Shown here in pieces: positions 42,920 through 51,700 of a DNA stretch of 64,000 nt. Source of the DNA: Haloarcula salinisoli (GTDB lineage: Archaea; Halobacteriota; Halobacteria; Halobacteriales; Haloarculaceae). The position numbers were made by a program, and so were the translations under genes. The notes under the pieces are model-generated. The model was not told the origin of the DNA. It saw only the letters and a program-made list of their open reading frames with translations, and ran no database searches. How positions within the stretch are numbered: the first letter of the stretch is position 1; each line of letters starts with the position of its first letter. The stretch covers positions 1,426,001 to 1,490,000 of the forward strand of contig NZ_RKLQ01000001.1 of the NCBI RefSeq assembly GCF_019599405.1, given 5' to 3'.

Positions 42920-43102
42920 ATGGCACATTGTCCCGGCTGTGGGAACACAGTCTCGACCGCTGGAGACGTTACGTTCACGGAGATGAATGAAGACGAAGGG
43001 CTTTCCATTACTTTTGGAATGGATAGCAGTTACTTCATCATGAGTTGCGGACAGTGTAACCGAATGTTGGGTGGCGGCGTCGGATCCTATGGTGCGGGGT
43101 AA
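42920..43102 (+). CDS. Small zinc-ribbon protein, first of a tandem pair
   Basis: 60 residues with a CPGCGN pair near the N-terminus and SCGQCNRMLGGGVG near the C-terminus, forming one zinc ribbon with an intervening two-strand segment. ATG at 42920 (MAHCPGCGN) or GTG at 42896, which fits the A/T box CTTTTATTTC better. Third-position bases are less GC-biased than in neighbours (for example ATT ACT TTT GGA), hinting at different history or expression. Confidence 0.7.
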   Translation: MAHCPGCGNTVSTAGDVTFTEMNEDEGLSITFGMDSSYFIMSCGQCNRMLGGGVGSYGAG

Positions 43103-43104
43103 TA

Positions 43105-43293
43105 ATGCACAGTAACGAAACTACGTGTCCCAGTTGTGAGGCGTCAATCACGGCCGACAACGATGTCGAGTTTATCGAAATAGATACAGAGGGGACGGAA
43201 ATGTTTTCGCTCGGCGCGCCGACGAAGATGTACGTGATTGCCTGTGGGAACTGCGAGGTTATACTCGGCGGCGGCGTCGGTATTGCGAGCTAA
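43105..43293 (+). CDS. Small zinc-ribbon protein, second of a tandem pair
   Basis: 62 residues starting 2 nt after the previous stop. Same layout: CPSCEAS near the start, an acidic strand DNDVEFIEID, and ACGNCEVILGGGVG at the end. The shared C-x-x-C ... GGGVG ending shows that the two are paralogues from a tandem duplication. Function unknown; possible heterodimer. Confidence 0.7.
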   Translation: MHSNETTCPSCEASITADNDVEFIEIDTEGTEMFSLGAPTKMYVIACGNCEVILGGGVGIAS

Positions 43294-43339
43294 CCGGCGC
43301 AATCGGCCCCTCGGGTGGTACGTACCGCACGAGCGCGGG

Positions 43340-43450
43340 TCAGTCGGCGCCGCGGCAGTCCACCCACCCACAGGCCTCACAGACCGGGGCGCCGTCCCGG
43401 GGGTGCATACGCGCCTCGCAGCGAGCACAGACGGTGACGGTTTCAGTCAT
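43340..43450 (-). CDS. 36-residue CxxC microprotein coupled to the aldehyde dehydrogenase gene
   Basis: ATG at 43450 overlaps the ALDH stop in ATGACTGA. The protein reads MTETVTVCARCEARMHPRDG then APVCEACGWVDCRGAD: two CxxC pairs 13 residues apart plus an extra cysteine, the layout of a haloarchaeal small zinc finger. Codon third positions are almost all G or C, as in genuine genes. It is too short for standard gene finders. It may regulate or chaperone the enzyme, or be an unrelated RNA-binding microprotein using the operon for expression. Confidence 0.7.
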   Translation of the reverse strand: MTETVTVCARCEARMHPRDGAPVCEACGWVDCRGAD

Positions 43451-44966
43451 CGTCCTCGGTGATGATATCGGCCGACAGCCCCTGGGCCATCTGAATCTCC
43501 TTTGAGTTGTTCAGCGTCCAGGCGGTCCGGTCGGTGACGGCCTCGATTATCTCGCGGGCCGAGGGGTAGCCGTTGCCCGATTTCTTCACGCCGCCGAAGG
43601 GGAGCTGGACCTCCGCGCCGATACACGGAAGATTCCCGTAGGCCAGCCCGAGTTCGGCGTGGTCGCGGTAGTAGTTTATCTGGCGGTAGTCCTCCGAGAC
43701 GATGGCCCCGGCCAGCCCGTAGTCGGTGTCGTTCTGAATCTCGACGGCGCGCTCGATGTCGCCGTCGTACGGAAGCAAGGCGACGTGGGGGCCGAAGACC
43801 TCCTCTTGCGTACAGCGGAGGTCGGCGTCGGGGTCGGCCTCGTAGACGAACGGGCCGACCCAGTGACCGTCCTCGTGCCCGTCGGGAATCTCGTCGGCGT
43901 CTAGCTCTGTGCGGTCGACCAGCACCTCGACGCCCTCCTCGCGGGCGAGGTCGCGGTACTCGGTCACTTTCTCCTTGTGCTCGCCCTCGATGAGCGGCCC
44001 CATGAACGTGTCCTCCTGCAGGGGGTCACCCACGGCGACCGAACTCGCCGCGTCGACGAACCGCTCCTTGAACTCGTCGTAGACGTCCCTGTGGACGATG
44101 ATGCGCTCCGAGGAGACACAGCGCTGGCCGGTGGTCTTGAACGAGGACATCACGGCCGAGTGGACGGCGATGTCCAGGTCGGCTTCCTCGGTGATGACGA
44201 CGGCGTTTTTCCCACCCATCTCGCAGGCCGCGCGCTTGCCTGACTCGCCGCCGACCGAGTCGGCTATCTGGTGGCCGACTTCGGCCGACCCGGTAAAGAG
44301 CACCGTGGGCACGCGGTCGTCGTCGACGATAGCGGCCCCGGCGTCGCCGAAGCCCTGGACCATGTTGAACACGCCCTCGGGGATACCGGCGTCTTCGAAC
44401 ATCTCCGCGACGATCTGGGCACACCAGGGCGTCTGTTCGGCGGGCTTCCAGACGACGGTGTTGCCCTCGACCAGCGCGACAGCCATGTGCCAGTAGGGGA
44501 TGGCGATGGGGAAGTTCCACGGCGTGATACAGCCGGTGACTCCCCGTGGCTTGCGTCGCATATAGGCGTCCTTGGCTGCGATTTCGGATGGGATGATGTC
44601 GCCGCTCGGGTGGCGGGCGTCGCCGGCGGCCCACTCGACCATGTGGGCGGCCTCGACCACGTCGGCTTTCCCTTCGCTGATCTCTTTCCCGCACTCCTTG
44701 GTGACGATTTCGCCCAGTTCGTCGGTCCGCTCCCGGAGTTCGTGGTAGACGTCCCAGAGGTACTCCGCGCGGTCGATGCGGGAGAGTTCGCGCCACTCCC
44801 CGTAGGCCTCGTCAGCGGCCGCGATGGCCTCGTCGACATCCGCCGGTGTCCCTCGCTGGAACTCGCCCAGTGACTCGCCCGTCGCCGGGTTCTCGCTCTC
44901 GAACGTCTCGGTGCTGTTGCCGGTCACCCACTCACCGTCGATGTAGTGTTGGTACGTCTCTGCCAT
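43443..44966 (-). CDS. Aldehyde dehydrogenase, probable 1-pyrroline-5-carboxylate dehydrogenase
   Basis: 507 residues. NAD-dependent ALDH with TPWNFPIAIPYWHMAVALVEGNTVVWKPAE, the catalytic glutamate region CEMGGKNAVV, and the catalytic cysteine in TTGQRCVSSERI. Proline dehydrogenase 0.9 kb away and the shared operator-like site make glutamate-gamma-semialdehyde (P5C) the most likely substrate, yielding glutamate. Sequence alone would allow another ALDH. The ATG at 44966 (MAETYQHYIDGEWV) is chosen; a long open extension upstream is non-coding and holds the promoter. Confidence 0.85.
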   Translation of the reverse strand: MAETYQHYIDGEWVTGNSTETFESENPATGESLGEFQRGTPADVDEAIAAADEAYGEWRELSRIDRAEYLWDVYHELRERTDELGEIVTKECGKEISEGKADVVEAAHMVEWAAGDARHPSGDIIPSEIAAKDAYMRRKPRGVTGCITPWNFPIAIPYWHMAVALVEGNTVVWKPAEQTPWCAQIVAEMFEDAGIPEGVFNMVQGFGDAGAAIVDDDRVPTVLFTGSAEVGHQIADSVGGESGKRAACEMGGKNAVVITEEADLDIAVHSAVMSSFKTTGQRCVSSERIIVHRDVYDEFKERFVDAASSVAVGDPLQEDTFMGPLIEGEHKEKVTEYRDLAREEGVEVLVDRTELDADEIPDGHEDGHWVGPFVYEADPDADLRCTQEEVFGPHVALLPYDGDIERAVEIQNDTDYGLAGAIVSEDYRQINYYRDHAELGLAYGNLPCIGAEVQLPFGGVKKSGNGYPSAREIIEAVTDRTAWTLNNSKEIQMAQGLSADIITEDDD

Positions 44967-44989: not shown

Positions 44990-45000
44990 TCCAAAATACC
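44990..45000 (-). promoter_or_regulatory. A/T box of the aldehyde dehydrogenase gene
   Basis: GGGTATTTTGG on the minus strand, about 29 bp before the ATG, directly following the palindromic site at 44999-45018. Confidence 0.6.
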
Positions 45001-45018
45001 CGTCCGACCATGGACGGG
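44999..45018. promoter_or_regulatory. Operator-like inverted repeat (site 1)
   Basis: CCCGTCC and GGACGGG arms around GACCAT. On the minus strand it contains CCATGGTCGG immediately upstream of the ALDH A/T box. Confidence 0.65.
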
Positions 45019-45066
45019 AACCGAGAATAAGGGGGCATTCGGGCCCACAGGGACCGTTTTTCGGCC

Positions 45067-45086
45067 CACCCGACCATGGTCGGGTG
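45067..45086. promoter_or_regulatory. Perfect 20-bp palindrome, operator-like (site 2)
   Basis: CACCCGACCATGGTCGGGTG. It is followed rightward by TGTAATTTGG, a likely A/T box of the regulator gene at 45136. Confidence 0.75.
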
Positions 45087-45135
45087 TAATTTGGTAGACC
45101 AACACATGGAAGCACTTACAACGTGAATTGTACCT

Positions 45136-45858
45136 ATGGCCGCGATTGACCAGACCACCACGACGTGGCTCACCCTCGACCTGTGGCATCCGAACTGCTG
45201 GGCTATCAAGGCGACCGGAGAGACTACCGGTGGCGTGCTGGCCCACTCCATCTACACCTCGCCGAAGACAGACGGGAACCACAGCGGGAAGGTAAAGGGG
45301 CTGTTCACCGCGTTCGCCGACGACGAACCGGCGGTAAACGACCTGCTGGACGCGATTCGGGACTCCGAGCACGCCGGCGAGCTCTCCGAGCTCCAGGAAC
45401 GCTTCGGACGCGAACGCAACGCCCCCGGGAACGTGGTCCGGGAGTTCTTCCTCGAGTACGACCCCGACGACATGGTGTGTCCGACCCTGCTGGAACACGG
45501 CTTCGTCCACAACGCCCCGGTCCGCATCGAGAACGGGCGCGAGGAGTGGCAGGTCTGTTTCGTGGACGAACGCTCCCAGATAGACGACGCGCTGGAGCGG
45601 GTTCGCGAGCAGGCCGGCGCGGAGGTCACCGTCGACTCCATCACCACGGGCGAGGCCGCCGCAACCACCGCCCGGGACCAGCGACTCGACACGCTCACCG
45701 CCAAACAGCGGGACGTGTTCGAACACGCACGCGAGGCGGGCTACTACGAGTGGCCACGGCAGTGTGACACGCGCGAACTGGCAGACGACCTCGGCGTCTC
45801 GAAGACCACGCTGCTGGAACACCTCAGAAAAGCCGAAGCGAAGCTGCTGGACCCGTAG
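45136..45858 (+). CDS. Bat-type HTH transcriptional regulator
   Basis: 240 residues. The C-terminal HTH_10 domain (about 185-238) is LTAKQRDVFEHAREAGYYEWPR...TRELADDLGVSKTTLLEHLRKAEAKLL, as in haloarchaeal bacterio-opsin activator-like proteins. The N-terminal 160 residues form a putative ligand-sensing domain (WHPNCWAI and HGFVHNAPVRI segments) without known cofactor sites. It lies between the ALDH and convergent proline dehydrogenase genes (1 bp from the latter), so it is the prime candidate to control them, and site 2 in its own promoter suggests autoregulation. Confidence 0.85.
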   Translation: MAAIDQTTTTWLTLDLWHPNCWAIKATGETTGGVLAHSIYTSPKTDGNHSGKVKGLFTAFADDEPAVNDLLDAIRDSEHAGELSELQERFGRERNAPGNVVREFFLEYDPDDMVCPTLLEHGFVHNAPVRIENGREEWQVCFVDERSQIDDALERVREQAGAEVTVDSITTGEAAATTARDQRLDTLTAKQRDVFEHAREAGYYEWPRQCDTRELADDLGVSKTTLLEHLRKAEAKLLDP

Positions 45859-45859
45859 A

Positions 45860-46687
45860 TCAGGAACCGACCACGGCACGGAGCGCGAACAGCGCGTTCT
45901 GCTTGCGCTCGCGGATACGCCGGTAGAAGTAGGAGAACCATTTGCTGCCGTAGGGGATGTACTGGTACACCTCGTACTCCTCGGCCAGTTCGAACTGGGC
46001 GCTCTCGCGTACGCCCGTGAGCATCTGAATCTCGAAGGGGGTGCCGTGTTCCTCGTGGAGCTCCCTGGCGAGGTCTGTCATCGCGGGGTCGTGGCTCCCG
46101 ACGGCGATACCGTCGTCGAATTCCTCGAACATGTAGGTCAGGTACTCCCGATACATCTCGTCGACTTTCGACTTCTCCGTGTAGGCAATCTCGGCCGGCG
46201 GGTCGTACGCTCCCTTCACGAGTCTGACCTTCCCCGGACAGTCGGCCAGCCGTTCGAGCGTCTCGCCGGTCCGCCTGAGGTTCGCCTGCACGCAGACGCC
46301 GACGTTTCCGTCCGTCTCGCGGGCGTGGCGCTCGAAGGCGTCGAGGGTCACGTCGACCGTGTCGTGGTCCTCCATATCGACCCAGACGAAGCAGTCGGCG
46401 GCCTCGACGATGCGTGCGAGGTTCTCCTCGAAGGCGTCGTCGCCCACTTCGAGCCCGATCTGGCTCGGCTTGACCGAGATACACCCATCGAGGTCCCGGC
46501 GGGCCAGCCCCTCGGCGAGGTCGATGTACGCCTCGGCGTCGGCGTCAGCGTCCGCGCGGTCCTCGTAGTGTTCGCCCAGCAAATTGAGGATGCCTTTCAC
46601 GCCCCGTGCGTTCAGCTCCTCCACGTGGTCCAGCGCTTCCGCGGCAGTCTCGCCGGCCACGAAGTTGTTCGCTATGGGGGGTATCAT
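45860..46687 (-). CDS. Proline dehydrogenase
   Basis: 275-residue FAD-dependent PRODH barrel of the monofunctional type, oxidising proline to 1-pyrroline-5-carboxylate. Visible motifs are SVKPSQIG, VWVDMEDHDTVDVTLDAFE, VCVQANLRRTGE, VRLVKGAYDPP and, at the C-terminus, YIPYGSKWFSYFYRRIRERK, which holds the paired arginines that bind substrate. Works with the ALDH upstream. The promoter-like site 3 lies about 110 bp before the ATG, implying a leader of about 75-80 nt, or a nearer start from GGATATACG. Confidence 0.93.
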   Translation of the reverse strand: MIPPIANNFVAGETAAEALDHVEELNARGVKGILNLLGEHYEDRADADADAEAYIDLAEGLARRDLDGCISVKPSQIGLEVGDDAFEENLARIVEAADCFVWVDMEDHDTVDVTLDAFERHARETDGNVGVCVQANLRRTGETLERLADCPGKVRLVKGAYDPPAEIAYTEKSKVDEMYREYLTYMFEEFDDGIAVGSHDPAMTDLARELHEEHGTPFEIQMLTGVRESAQFELAEEYEVYQYIPYGSKWFSYFYRRIRERKQNALFALRAVVGS

Positions 46688-46784
46688 ACACTGTCACACG
46701 CGCCAGACCATCGTATATCCGGACCCTACCAAATATTTCTGACATTTTGTGTTCGAAACCAACGGACAAAGGCCGGAAATCCTC

Positions 46785-46816
46785 ATGAAATTATGCCCGA
46801 CCGACCATGGTAGGGG
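46785..46816. promoter_or_regulatory. Operator-like site 3 between prodh and livJ
   Basis: Minus strand CCATGGTCGG followed by TCGGGCATAATTTC, the same order and spacing as at the ALDH promoter. The core ACCATGGT is palindromic at 46804-46811. It lies in a 147-bp divergent gap and may serve both the proline dehydrogenase and the ABC importer. Confidence 0.6.
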
Positions 46817-46834
46817 CACCATTGAGGCGCATCT

Positions 46835-48073
46835 ATGATGACCATTGAACTACCCATGCGAGAATATACCACGAACGGGATAGACCGACGGACCATGCTG
46901 AAACTGACCGGCGGTGTCGGAATCGCCGGCCTGGCCGGCTGTAGTGGTTCCTCAGGTGACGAGGCGTACAACATCGGGATGGTCGACGCCCAGACGGGGT
47001 CGCTGTCGGCTTTCGGCGAGCGCAACCAACGCGGGAAAGACCTCGCCCTCTCGGCGGTCAATGAGGTCGGTATCGGCGGCAGCGAGCTACAGGTCACCGT
47101 CGAGGACTCCGGCAGCGAGAACCAGGGTGGCATTTCGGCCGCCCAGAAGCTCGTCAACCAGGACGGCGTCCCGTTCCTCATCGGAGCCGTCGGCTCGGGC
47201 GTCTCGCTGGCTATCTACGAGAGTGTCGTGGAAGGGACCGACGTGGTCCAGCTTTCCCAGAACTCTACCGGCCTCGGACTGACCGACTTTCCGGAGCTCC
47301 TCCGAATGTCACCGCCGGGGAGCACGCAGGCGACCGCCCTCGCGGACATCATCGCCGAGGACGGCTACGACAGCGTCGCGCTCACGTACGTGAACAACAA
47401 CTACGGCCAGAGCCTGGCCGAGGCCTTCACGAACGCCTGGGACGGCGATGTCGCCTACAACAACTCTCACGACCAGGAACAGCAGTCTTACTCCAGTGTT
47501 ATCTCGGAGATGAACAACGCCAGCGCGGACGCATGGCTGTTTATCACCTACCAGGCGGAGTTCTCCACGATGGTCAACGAGATATTCTCGAGTGGCTACG
47601 AGGCCCAGCTCTACGGCGCGGACTCCGTCTCGGGCGAGAACGTTCTCGAGAACACCCCCGACGGGAGCATGGAAGGGATGAAAATCGTCGTTCCCTCGGC
47701 CCCCGTAGAGGAGCAGAACTACCAGGACTTCGCCTCGACGTTCGAGGAGGAGTACGGTCAGGCCCCGACCTCGTGGGCGGCCTACGCCTACGACTGCGTC
47801 ATCAACGCGGCGCTGGCCATCCAGGCTGCGGACTCCTTTACCGGGGCCGCGCTTGGCGAAGTCGTCCGCGACGTCAGCCGGCCGGAGGGTGAGCAGGTCA
47901 CCTCCTTCGAAGCGGCGAGCGATATCCTCTCGGACGGCAGTCCGAGCGACGTGGACTATCAGGGCGTCAGCGGTCCCATCGACTTCGACGAGAACGGTGA
48001 CCCAGTCGGCTTCCTGCAGGTTCTCGAGGTCCAGGACCACAGTTACCAGGGCGTCGACTTCATCAGTTCCTGA
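46835..48073 (+). CDS. livJ: Amino acid ABC transporter substrate-binding lipoprotein
   Basis: 412 residues from ATG 46835 (GAGG 7 nt upstream); ATG 46856 is an alternative. Signal with RRTMLKLTGG and lipobox GLAGC near residue 35, then a two-lobed Leu/Ile/Val-type binding protein (IGMVDAQTGSLSAFGERNQRGKDLALSAVN at the start of lobe 1, GYDSVALTYVNNNYGQSLAE at the start of lobe 2). First gene of livJHMGF with gaps of 7, 1, overlap 4 and 2 nt. Divergent from proline dehydrogenase, so proline or a related amino acid is a reasonable ligand guess, but Liv-type proteins also carry branched-chain amino acids, amides or urea. Confidence 0.92.
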   Translation: MMTIELPMREYTTNGIDRRTMLKLTGGVGIAGLAGCSGSSGDEAYNIGMVDAQTGSLSAFGERNQRGKDLALSAVNEVGIGGSELQVTVEDSGSENQGGISAAQKLVNQDGVPFLIGAVGSGVSLAIYESVVEGTDVVQLSQNSTGLGLTDFPELLRMSPPGSTQATALADIIAEDGYDSVALTYVNNNYGQSLAEAFTNAWDGDVAYNNSHDQEQQSYSSVISEMNNASADAWLFITYQAEFSTMVNEIFSSGYEAQLYGADSVSGENVLENTPDGSMEGMKIVVPSAPVEEQNYQDFASTFEEEYGQAPTSWAAYAYDCVINAALAIQAADSFTGAALGEVVRDVSRPEGEQVTSFEAASDILSDGSPSDVDYQGVSGPIDFDENGDPVGFLQVLEVQDHSYQGVDFISS

Positions 48074-48080
48074 CCGACCG

Positions 48081-48989
48081 ATGGTACTCGACCTACTCGC
48101 CAGCGGGCTGGTCTTCAGCAGCATCATCGTACTCGGCAGTATCGGTCTGTCGCTGGTGTACAGCATCGCGAACTTCGCGAACTTCGCCCACGGCGACACG
48201 ATGACCATCGGCGCCTACACGTCGCTGGTCACCTTCGGCGCCGTCGGCGGGCTCGGCGGGTCGGTCCTCGGATTGCCCTTCGGCTTTTTCGTCGCGTTGC
48301 TCGCCGGCATAGCCGTGGCCGCACTCGTCGCGGTCGTCACGGAGAAGCTCGTCTACGACGGGATGGACCTGGACTCCATCGGGCTGCTCATCGTCTCTAT
48401 CGGGCTGGCTTTCATCTACCGCGCGGTCATCCAACTGGGCTTTAGCGCCCAGTCCACACGGTACGGGATTCAGGCACTCCGCCCCATCGAGGCGTTGCTG
48501 CCGTACGGGGTTCGGGTCACCCAGCACGACGTGGCCATCGTCGTCTCCGCCGCCGTGCTGGTCACCGGCCTGCACGTTCTCCTGCAGTACAGCGACCTCG
48601 GCCGGAAGATGCGAGCGATGGCCGACAACCCGGACCTGGCCCGCGTCAGCGGTATCCGGACCGACCGTATCAAGCTGTGGACCTGGGTCATCGGCGCCGG
48701 ACTCGCCGGTGCCGGCGGTGCGTTCCTCGGGCTGTACAGCCAGCTCACGCCCCGAATGGGCTTTAACCTCCTCTTGCTCATCTTCGCCGCGGTCATCCTC
48801 GGCGGCATCGGCTCCGTCTACGGCGCGATGCTCGGCGGCTTCCTCATCGGGGTTATAAACCAGATGACGCCGCTGTTGTCCCAGATAGGCATCCCCATCG
48901 GCATCGAGTACGCCGACGCGATAGCCTTCGTCATCATGGTGGTCGTGTTGCTGTTCCGACCGAACGGTATCGCCGGGGAGGCGACCTGA
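48081..48989 (+). CDS. livH: Branched-chain-type amino acid ABC transporter permease LivH
   Basis: 302 residues, about eight transmembrane helices. The NFAHGDTMTIGAYTS segment near residue 35-50 and the GRKMRAMADNPDLARVSGI coupling-helix motif (EAA-like loop) near 180 are diagnostic. Pairs with LivM to form the membrane channel. Confidence 0.93.
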   Translation: MVLDLLASGLVFSSIIVLGSIGLSLVYSIANFANFAHGDTMTIGAYTSLVTFGAVGGLGGSVLGLPFGFFVALLAGIAVAALVAVVTEKLVYDGMDLDSIGLLIVSIGLAFIYRAVIQLGFSAQSTRYGIQALRPIEALLPYGVRVTQHDVAIVVSAAVLVTGLHVLLQYSDLGRKMRAMADNPDLARVSGIRTDRIKLWTWVIGAGLAGAGGAFLGLYSQLTPRMGFNLLLLIFAAVILGGIGSVYGAMLGGFLIGVINQMTPLLSQIGIPIGIEYADAIAFVIMVVVLLFRPNGIAGEAT

Positions 48990-48990
48990 G

Positions 48991-50142
48991 ATGTCGCTCA
49001 CCACTGACCCGAAAGGGTACTGGACCGACCTCACCGTCGCCGAGAAAGGAGTCTCCGTCGGCGTCGTCCTGTTTGCCGCCGCGCTACTCTTTAGCCTGCT
49101 CACCGGCGGGCTCGCACCGACGTACTTCCTCTATCTCGTCGGCCTCGCGGGGATGTACGCGCTGCTCTCGCTGGGCCTGAACTCCCAGTGGGGCTTTTCG
49201 GGGCTCATCAACTTCAGCGTCGCCGCCTTCTTCGGCATCGGTGCCTACGGCACCGCACTCGCCAGCGCGAGCGGCTCGCCGATAGCGGGCGGCCTGCCCC
49301 CGGTCGTGGGACTGCTCGCCGCGCTGGCGCTCGCGACGATGCTGGCGCTATTTATCGGTATCCCGACGCTCCGGCTCCGGGCCGACTACCTCGCCATCGC
49401 CTCTATCGGGCTGGCCGAGGTCGTTCGTATCATCGTCCGTAACCAGGACGACTGGACGAACGGCAGCGCCGGCGTCCGCGGCATCCCGAGCTTCTTCGAG
49501 GGGTGGCCGGTCCTGGAGACGCTCCCGGAGACGTTGCCGACGCTCGTCTTTGGCTCCGGGCCCGGTGCCACGGTGCTCAACGCGCCGTTCTGGCAGGCAC
49601 TGCTGAACGTCGGGCTGGTGCTCGCGTTCGTCGGTCTGTGCTACCTGGTCCTGCGCAGGGCCCACCGATCGCCGTGGGGGCGCGTGCTCCGGACGATTCG
49701 CTCCGACGAAGACCTCGCACGCGCGCTGGGCAAGAACACCTACGGCTTCAAGATGCAGTCGTTCGTCCTCGGGAGCCTCATCATGGCGCTCGCGGGCGTC
49801 TTCTACGCCCACCTGAACCTCTATGTCAGCCCCGGCGACTTAGACCCCATCACGACGTTCTACGTCTGGGTCGCGGTCATCCTGGGCGGGAGCGGTTCCA
49901 ACCGCGGCGCGCTCTTTGGCGGCGTCGTCATCGTCGCGATTCGGGAGGGGACGCGAGCCCTGCCAGTGGATGCCGCCCCCATGCGACTACTGTTCATCGG
50001 GCTCATCATCGTCTTCCTGATGCGGTTCCGTCCGCAGGGCGTCTTACCCCCACAGAAGGAGCTCATCTGGCCTGGGACCGTCGACGAGACGCCCCAGCAA
50101 CCGGACTCCGGCGTGCGAGAGACGAAAGCAGGTGAACAATGA
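48991..50142 (+). CDS. livM: Branched-chain-type amino acid ABC transporter permease LivM
   Basis: 383 residues, about ten helices. GLNSQWGFSGLINFSVAAFFGIGAYG in the N-terminal half and GRVLRTIRSDEDLARALGKNTYGFKMQSFVLG as the coupling loop fit LivM. Overlaps livG by 4 nt. Confidence 0.93.
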   Translation: MSLTTDPKGYWTDLTVAEKGVSVGVVLFAAALLFSLLTGGLAPTYFLYLVGLAGMYALLSLGLNSQWGFSGLINFSVAAFFGIGAYGTALASASGSPIAGGLPPVVGLLAALALATMLALFIGIPTLRLRADYLAIASIGLAEVVRIIVRNQDDWTNGSAGVRGIPSFFEGWPVLETLPETLPTLVFGSGPGATVLNAPFWQALLNVGLVLAFVGLCYLVLRRAHRSPWGRVLRTIRSDEDLARALGKNTYGFKMQSFVLGSLIMALAGVFYAHLNLYVSPGDLDPITTFYVWVAVILGGSGSNRGALFGGVVIVAIREGTRALPVDAAPMRLLFIGLIIVFLMRFRPQGVLPPQKELIWPGTVDETPQQPDSGVRETKAGEQ

Positions 50143-50942
50143 GCGAACAGACCACCGACACCCAGACTGCGGCAACGATGTCTAAAGACGACGTGGTGTT
50201 GCGCGTCGACAACCTCGTGAAGACCTTCGGCGCGCTCGTCGCTACCGACCACGCCACCTTCGAGGTCGAACGCGGCACCATCACGGGACTTATCGGCCCG
50301 AACGGGGCCGGGAAGTCGACGCTTTTCAACCTCATCTCGGGGTTCTACGAGGCCGATTCGGGCAGCGTCTCGGTCAACGGGACCGACGTCACGGGCCAGG
50401 AGCCCTACGAGATAGCCGACCACGGGCTGATTCGGACCTTCCAGACGCCCCGCAAAGTCGAGGGGATGACAGTCCGGGAGGCGATGCTCGTCGGGCCGCG
50501 CAACCAGCCCGGCGAGTCGTTCCTGAAACTGTTCACCGCCCCCGGTGAGGTCGGCGAGGCCGAATCGAAGAACATGGACGACGTCAACCGAATCCTAGAG
50601 GAGTTCGAAATCGACCATCTGGCCACCCAGCCCGCGACGAAGATATCGGGCGGCCAGATGAAACTGGTCGAACTGGCCCGTGCGATGCTCTCTGAGCCCG
50701 AAATCCTGCTGCTGGACGAGCCGGCCGCGGGCGTGAACCCCACCCTCAGGAACAAGCTCGCCGAGCAGATTCGCCGGCTCAACGAGCAAGGGACGACGAT
50801 GTTGCTCATCGAACACGACATGGAGTTCGTGATGAGCCTGGCCGACCCGGTCATCGTCCTCGACCAGGGGTCGGTCCTGATGGAGGGACGCCCCGACGAA
50901 GTCCAGAGCGACACCCGTGTCATCGACGCGTACCTCGGATAA
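50139..50942 (+). CDS. livG: ABC transporter ATP-binding protein LivG
   Basis: 267 residues. Walker A GPNGAGKST near residue 51, the Q-loop, the signature KISGGQMKLVELARAM, and Walker B ILLLDEPAAGVNP. The C-terminal QSDTRVIDAYLG matches the LivG ending. Couples ATP hydrolysis to amino acid uptake. Confidence 0.94.
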   Translation: MSEQTTDTQTAATMSKDDVVLRVDNLVKTFGALVATDHATFEVERGTITGLIGPNGAGKSTLFNLISGFYEADSGSVSVNGTDVTGQEPYEIADHGLIRTFQTPRKVEGMTVREAMLVGPRNQPGESFLKLFTAPGEVGEAESKNMDDVNRILEEFEIDHLATQPATKISGGQMKLVELARAMLSEPEILLLDEPAAGVNPTLRNKLAEQIRRLNEQGTTMLLIEHDMEFVMSLADPVIVLDQGSVLMEGRPDEVQSDTRVIDAYLG

Positions 50943-50944
50943 CC

Positions 50945-51700
50945 ATGACCGGAGACACTACTACGACCCAGGAGACCGCGAGCGCCGAACCGACCGACCA
51001 CGTCGTCGAACTGTCGGGCGTCGACAGCGGCTACGGCGAGGTACAGGTACTGGACGACTGCTCGCTGCATCTCGACGCCGAGGAGATCGTCTGTCTCATC
51101 GGCCCCAACGGTGCCGGGAAATCGACCGTCCTCAAGACGGTGTTCGGGATGTTGACCCCCTGGGAGGGGTCGGTCACGTACCACGGCGAGGACATCGGCG
51201 GGATGGCCCCCGAAGAGATCGTCCGCGAAGGCATCGGGTACGTCCCCCAGACGGACAACGTCTTCGGCTCGCTCAGCATCGACGAGAACCTCCGGATGGG
51301 CGGGGTCGCCCGCGAGAGCGGCCTCGAACCGGTCATGGACAAGCTCTACGACCGCTTCCCGCTGCTCGACAAGAAGCGCACAGCGAAAGCCAGGACCCTC
51401 TCGGGCGGCCAGCGGCAGGTGCTCGCCTTCGCTCGGGCCTTGGTCATGGAACCCGACGTGTTGCTCATCGACGAGCCGTCGGCGGGGCTGGCCCCCAACA
51501 CCGCCAAAGACGTCTTCGGCCACGTCGAAGCCGTCAACGACCTCGACACGGCCATCCTGATGGTCGAACAGAACGCCACGGAGGGGCTCGGTATCTCCGA
51601 CCGCGGCTACGTCCTCGACCAGGGGACCGTCCGCTTTGGCGGCGCGGCGGACTCGCTGCTGGACAACGAAGAGGTGTCGAAGCTATATCTCGGCGGATGA
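50945..51700 (+). CDS. livF: ABC transporter ATP-binding protein LivF
   Basis: 251 residues. Walker A GPNGAGKST near 54, signature TLSGGQRQVLAFARAL, Walker B VLLIDEPSAGLAP, ending VSKLYLGG as usual for LivF. The second nucleotide-binding subunit, completing the importer. Confidence 0.94.
   Translation: MTGDTTTTQETASAEPTDHVVELSGVDSGYGEVQVLDDCSLHLDAEEIVCLIGPNGAGKSTVLKTVFGMLTPWEGSVTYHGEDIGGMAPEEIVREGIGYVPQTDNVFGSLSIDENLRMGGVARESGLEPVMDKLYDRFPLLDKKRTAKARTLSGGQRQVLAFARALVMEPDVLLIDEPSAGLAPNTAKDVFGHVEAVNDLDTAILMVEQNATEGLGISDRGYVLDQGTVRFGGAADSLLDNEEVSKLYLGG

Follow-up and report, generated by a model that had tools for sequence, protein, structure and literature searches.

In Haloarcula salinisoli, the gene for a Bat-type regulator lies between an ALDH gene and a gene for proline dehydrogenase (PRODH), next to the genes of a livJHMGF importer, and the gaps between these genes carry copies of one short palindrome. 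The arrangement raises the question of whether the palindrome is a control site, which of these genes it would serve, and which protein would read it. We analyzed a window of 64,000 nucleotides (C1:1426001-1490000) within the genome of 4,027,253 bases; among named organisms, the locus has its nearest relatives in Haloarcula rara and other Haloarculaceae. The features that enter the argument are listed here in window coordinates.

43443-44966, minus strand: ALDH, a probable P5C/glutamate-semialdehyde dehydrogenase (Pfam Aldedh, E 8e-144)
44991-44998, minus strand: predicted ALDH promoter A/T box, TATTTTGG on that strand, from the sequence; a conserved TTTGG box at a near-fixed offset from the dyad
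45004-45017, no strand: putative operator 1, with sequence CCGACCATGGACGG and its dyad between 45010 and 45011, which is 44 bp upstream of the ALDH ATG
45067-45086, no strand: putative operator 2, with the 20-bp sequence CACCCGACCATGGTCGGGTG, which is a perfect palindrome, and its dyad 59 bp upstream of the regulator ATG
45087-45094, plus strand: predicted regulator-side A/T box, TAATTTGG, from the sequence; conserved in two-site loci
45136-45858, plus strand: HTH_10 (Bat-type) regulator, 240 amino acids (Pfam HTH_10, PF04967, E 2.6e-21, residues 187-238)
45860-46687, minus strand: PRODH (Pfam Pro_dh, PF01619, E 2.5e-28)
46714-46739, minus strand: predicted PRODH promoter element, consisting of the half-site GAAATATTTGGTAGGG (46724-46739) and a TATA box (from 46714)
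46801-46814, no strand: putative operator 3, with sequence CCGACCATGGTAGG and its dyad between 46807 and 46808; it faces livJ, and its flank is conserved on the livJ side only
46821-46827, plus strand: predicted livJ promoter A/T box, ATTGAGG (TTnAG in relatives), from sequence and alignment
46856-48073, plus strand: livJ-type substrate-binding protein (Pfam Peripla_BP_6, E 1.1e-39)
48081-51700, plus strand: livH, livM, livG, and livF, the permeases and ATPases of an ABC importer (Pfam BPD_transp_2 and ABC_tran)

The gene order ALDH-regulator-PRODH-livJ is widely conserved among the loci of relatives. Membership of the ALDH in the Aldedh family is certain, and its role as a P5C dehydrogenase is probable because its pairing with PRODH is kept in relatives. 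No NCBIfam equivalog matched the ALDH above its cutoff, and its top matches in a PDB search were betaine aldehyde dehydrogenases, with a P5C dehydrogenase also among the matches. PRODH scored 192.5 bits against NCBIfam ProDh_Thermus, which is under the cutoff of that model. For livJ, the start at 46856 is more likely than one at 46835, since the upstream ATG is absent from one related locus (L100). Beside the ALDH gene, at 42920-43294, lie two consecutive short open reading frames with paired CxxC motifs that encode small zinc-ribbon-like proteins.

The first-pass annotation had described three CCATGGTCGG sites, and all of them were found where it had placed them, at 45004-45013 (minus strand), 45070-45079 (minus strand)/45074-45083 (plus strand), and 46801-46810 (minus strand). 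The perfect 20-bp palindrome that it reported before the regulator was also confirmed (45067-45086) and contains a symmetrical 14-mer dyad, CCNNCCATGGNNGG, at 45070-45083. Its interval for the shared sites, 44990-46816, was accurate, but it ends before the livJ-side box at 46821-46827, and the PRODH element at 46714-46739 had gone unrecognized.

Conservation of the dyad was assessed in relatives of the regulator, comprising 80 loci from named genomes and 30 loci from the order. The dyad was found in 76 distinct sequences of the ALDH-regulator gap, of which 54 hold a single site and 22 hold two sites, and was absent from this gap only in two loci, L074 and L075. The dyad-bearing gaps come from Haloarcula-type genomes, Halorubrum, Halonotius, Halorussus, Natronomonas, and Haloferax, and their flanks have diverged between genera. 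The sites are kept in related genomes of many genera, a check that the earlier annotation had proposed. The distance from dyad to ALDH ATG is 44 bp in 50 of the 76 loci, and that from dyad to regulator start is 59 to 60 bp in 44 of them. On the evidence of these alignments, the palindrome is a genuine cis-regulatory site that has been conserved, and very probably it controls a dedicated circuit for proline use.

The position of the dyad relative to the promoter is similarly constrained. The A/T-richest stretch starts 12 to 15 bp from the dyad on the ALDH side and 13 to 14 bp from it at most livJ promoters. Considering the ALDH dyads, the livJ dyads, and a half-site before PRODH together, an A/T box starts ~12 to 15 bp away and each element lies directly upstream of the TATA region. 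This conserved spacing supports the original idea of a shared cis-site at that position; the accompanying claim of an A/T box at constant spacing held for sites 1 and 2 but not for site 3, where the conserved box is on the livJ side. In the aligned gaps, no conserved BRE-like consensus was found between dyad and box. In single-site Halorubrum gaps, A/T boxes flank one dyad on both sides at approximately equal distance. A Haloferax locus (L089) has no regulator-side A/T box and Natrialbaceae have no site before the regulator, which indicates that autoregulation is not universal.

A fixed dyad distance, weak boxes, and the lack of a conserved BRE-like sequence would suit an activator that recruits TFB/TBP, and the Halorubrum dyad with boxes on both sides would suit a symmetric dimer that serves a promoter in each of the two directions. 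We therefore consider it likely that the palindrome is an upstream activating site through which an HTH_10 dimer activates ALDH, PRODH, livJ, and, mostly, its own gene. The dimer would bind an operator of consensus CC(G/T)ACCATGG(T/A)CGG, with one TGGTCGG half per HTH. The bound dyad would precede a weak A/T box by ~12 to 15 bp and the leaderless or near-leaderless starts by ~44 bp, so that the regulator, next to or over the TFB-BRE contact region, could recruit TFB/TBP. This would switch on ALDH (the presumed P5C dehydrogenase) and the livJHMGF importer, as well as the regulator itself in most lineages. At PRODH, a single half-site at equal distance, accompanied by a better TATA box, would do the same job; that just one half of the dyad is present there counts against this reading. 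The predicted regulon thus most likely comprises ALDH, livJ, and PRODH, together with the regulator itself in most lineages. The earlier suggestion of a compact regulon with its own transporter was supported.

The same geometry could be read in the opposite direction, with the regulator acting as a repressor that blocks TFB/TBP from the palindrome until freed by an inducer. Many archaeal repressors act at the BRE/TATA region, which the site abuts, and an operator at the regulator's own gene would fit negative autoregulation. However, the dyad is consistently upstream of the box and not over or beyond it, and the boxes are weak (TTTGG and TTGAG) with no conserved BRE-like consensus, as expected for activator-dependent promoters. 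In addition, Bat and DmsR, HTH_10 proteins that have been characterized, both act as activators (PMC1447603). Repression is therefore a rather unlikely reading, and activation is the one that we carry forward.

We also considered which gene is served by site 3, which the first-pass annotation had assigned to proline dehydrogenase. When the PRODH-livJ gap was aligned on the dyad, the livJ side showed a G-rich stretch followed by TTnAG, while nothing beyond the palindrome was conserved on the PRODH side. The CATAATTTC box on the PRODH side of the window is not kept in relatives and is thus no conserved feature. PRODH has an element of its own, with the conserved form GAAAnATTTGGTCGGGTGnCnnTATA and the window version GAAATATTTGGTAGGGTCCGGATATA (minus strand), which holds one half of the dyad, TGGTAGGG. 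Its half-site boundary is 44 bp before the PRODH ATG, matching the distance of the full operator at ALDH. The element was present in 52 distinct gaps, lying exactly 44 bp from the ATG in 46 of them with the TATA box at the same offset, and its TTGGTMGGGNNNNNNTATA portion occurs once in the genome. The assignment of site 3 to PRODH was accordingly not upheld, as the conserved box faces livJ.

It could still be argued that site 3 regulates PRODH, by itself or jointly with livJ. The PRODH ATG is ~120 bp from the site within the divergent gap shared with livJ, a distance from which an activator could work, and the site relocates along with the PRODH-livJ pair: where PRODH has moved from the regulator by 15 kb (G328) or 6 kb (G364), the dyad is still found ~120 bp upstream of it. 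Against this stand the clear conservation on the livJ side, its absence beyond the palindrome on the PRODH side, and the half-site and TATA box that PRODH possesses at 44 bp. We judge control of PRODH from site 3 to be unlikely and retain the view that site 3 would serve livJ. Eight genomes (G234, G242, G358, G263, G328, G049, G137, and G364) carry a second PRODH copy that is 61 to 71% identical to that of the window, and no dyad was found near any second copy in the genomes checked.

We next asked which protein reads the palindrome. For this comparison, the regulator was scored as present when a genome encoded a close homologue with an E value below 1e-60. In one family (f4), the dyad was present in all 52 genomes with the regulator (mean, 2.8 places), whereas among the 41 genomes without it, 20 had the dyad and 21 had none (mean, 0.8 places). 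The co-occurrence gives a Fisher p of 7e-10, although the genomes are related and p values overstate their independence. Within one genus, the dyad was found in 24/24 genomes with the regulator versus 2/8 without it, and the reversed control pattern showed no difference between genomes with and without the regulator. Several genomes have exactly two dyads, both at this locus. The proposed link of the site to the adjacent Bat-type (HTH_10) regulator is therefore supported, in that the dyad tracks the regulator.

PRODH and ALDH are divergent in the loci of Natrialbaceae. There, the site takes the form CCGACCATGATCGG, and the regulators have the recognition helix AKSTLLEHLRRAE in place of SKTTLLEHLRKAE. 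The sequence CCGNCCATGATCGG has one or two occurrences per genome in 8/10 such Natrialbaceae genomes. This pattern, from one lineage, is suggestive of covariation between operator and recognition helix. Regulator homologues that are 57 to 59% identical, with a similar recognition helix, are encoded at three further loci (L083, L091, and L095). These have neither ALDH/PRODH neighbors nor an upstream operator, which counts against the main reading, and are possibly paralogues with another role.

Another protein, such as an HTH_10 paralogue or a general nitrogen regulator, might bind the palindrome and the neighboring regulator be incidental. Haloarchaea do have many HTH_10 paralogues, with tens of first-look candidates per genome, and the corresponding genes of Haloferax volcanii respond to alanine versus ammonium (PMC6801745). 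However, dyad presence tracks this orthologue within one family and one genus, and the operator variant tracks the recognition-helix variant. Moreover, there are three sites here, while a general regulator would have many, and the nitrogen motif proposed in the H. volcanii study, AAAGACTAART, differs from the palindrome (PMC6801745). Binding by some other protein is thus improbable, and the adjacent HTH_10 protein is, from these patterns of occurrence, most likely the reader.

More tentatively, the covariation could be part of a natural HTH_10 specificity code, in which operator and helix change together and a symmetric dimer replaces the missing TFB element at every regulon promoter, including two from one dyad in Halorubrum and PRODH from a half-site. 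We hold this extended idea to be somewhat doubtful.

The regulator protein itself was analyzed by domain and structure prediction. Pfam found HTH_10 alone, with no PAS, GAF, or Lrp/AsnC domain. The protein is accordingly filed in the HTH_10 family rather than as a Bat orthologue, and identity as an Lrp/AsnC-type PutR was ruled out. An AlphaFold2 model (mean pLDDT, 78.7; pTM, 0.61) has two N-terminal alpha/beta units, each roughly beta-alpha-beta-beta-alpha-beta, and a C-terminal HTH. We take this unit topology to be one that also occurs in ACT and RAM domains, which bind small molecules. In a PDB fold search, the best match to residues 7 to 173 was Ta1207 of Thermoplasma acidophilum (5m86; Z, 10.4; rmsd, 3.5; 142 aligned; 10% identity), while residues 172 to 240 matched many HTH proteins; a regulator profile found no relative among PDB sequences at E 0.01. 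The Ta1207 match to the modeled fold would fit a ligand-sensing part and names no ligand. The N-terminal units probably sense a small molecule, the leading candidates being proline or P5C, and proline is a plausible signal. Within the literature searched, no study described an HTH_10 regulator acting on proline genes, nor did binding or expression data for this regulator come up.

The proposed regulon would be a new one of a known kind. In bacteria, PutR (Lrp-type) and PutA (ribbon-helix-helix) likewise provide dedicated control of PRODH and P5C dehydrogenase, with regulators of unrelated families; in Caulobacter, proline utilization is reportedly under the control of PutR. The Bat/bop system of Halobacterium resembles the present locus in having a C-terminal HTH_10 regulator encoded beside its targets and a short upstream site common to a small number of linked genes, next to a TATA box that departs from consensus (PMC1447603). 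At bop, the UAS used by Bat lies near a deviant TATA box (PMC1447603). Unlike the regulator described here, which has HTH_10 only, Bat has N-terminal PAS, GAF, and associated domains, and the predicted targets here are genes for proline catabolism and for an ABC importer, with an operator that is a CCATGG-centered dyad. NarO and DmsR are also HTH_10 regulators without PAS and GAF (PMC11218638), and DmsR positively regulates the dms operon (PMC1447603). Both are short activators of anaerobic respiration, and their target genes differ from those at this locus. An operator or signal is known for few of the HTH_10 regulators of archaea, despite the many encoded per haloarchaeal genome, and this locus supplies a base-resolved operator, a small regulon, and natural variants of operator and recognition helix.

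A likely equivalent exists in the genetically tractable H. volcanii, where HVO_1191 (PRODH) and HVO_1189 (ALDH) are upregulated together on alanine versus ammonium, with log2 fold changes of 2.9 and 2.1, respectively (PMC6801745). The authors of that study call this signal unclear and do not expect raised proline on alanine, and they proposed neither this operator nor a regulator for the coinduced pair (PMC6801745). The H. volcanii ALDH-PRODH coordinates span ~3.25 kb, as does the corresponding block of Haloferax sulfurifontis (L089, 6318-9563). Based on this equal span, HVO_1189 to HVO_1191 are very probably the same gene block, and HVO_1190 is very probably this regulator. Neither the text nor the table of that study names HVO_1190, HVO_1192, or a livJ gene from this locus, and neither importer induction nor autoregulation was seen there. 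The signal for the PRODH/ALDH pair was left open in H. volcanii (PMC6801745). The present locus makes it directly testable how Bat-type regulators activate transcription and how proline use is wired in haloarchaea.

Finally, we determined how often the palindrome occurs in the H. salinisoli genome, using pattern searches with the reversed pattern as a control. The genome scan proposed in the first-pass annotation had a split outcome. The CCATGGTCGG 10-mer occurs at the control rate, with 16 matches versus 13 for the reversed pattern, and was dropped as a genome-wide motif in favor of the 14-bp dyad. This dyad was not at a random rate: CCNNCCATGGNNGG occurs in 3 places, all within the locus, versus 8 for its reversed control. 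As the 14-mer was picked after the sites had been seen, its conservation elsewhere is the decisive test. That the motif is a chance or composition effect of a GC-rich genome is suggested by the bare 10-mer, with its 16 copies close to the control, but this is hardly conceivable for a full dyad that is unique to the locus and whose position and spacing are conserved across many genera.

A dyad search allowing two mismatches returned 63 places, mostly GAC/GTC-rich look-alikes, and was rejected. The 12 CCATGGTCGG matches away from the locus lie within long open frames, with one promoter-like exception (L010:1497-1530), where CTTACCATGGTCGG is followed by TTTATT at the operator-to-box spacing and precedes a 44-amino-acid, zinc-ribbon-like open reading frame. 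It was not accepted as an extra regulon member because its dyad is poor, and it is possibly a weak additional site or a chance occurrence. Outside the locus, CCNNCCATGGNNGG is absent even though the reversed control occurs 8 times; there may be selection against stray dyads, or the genome may avoid CCATGG on other grounds, for example restriction.
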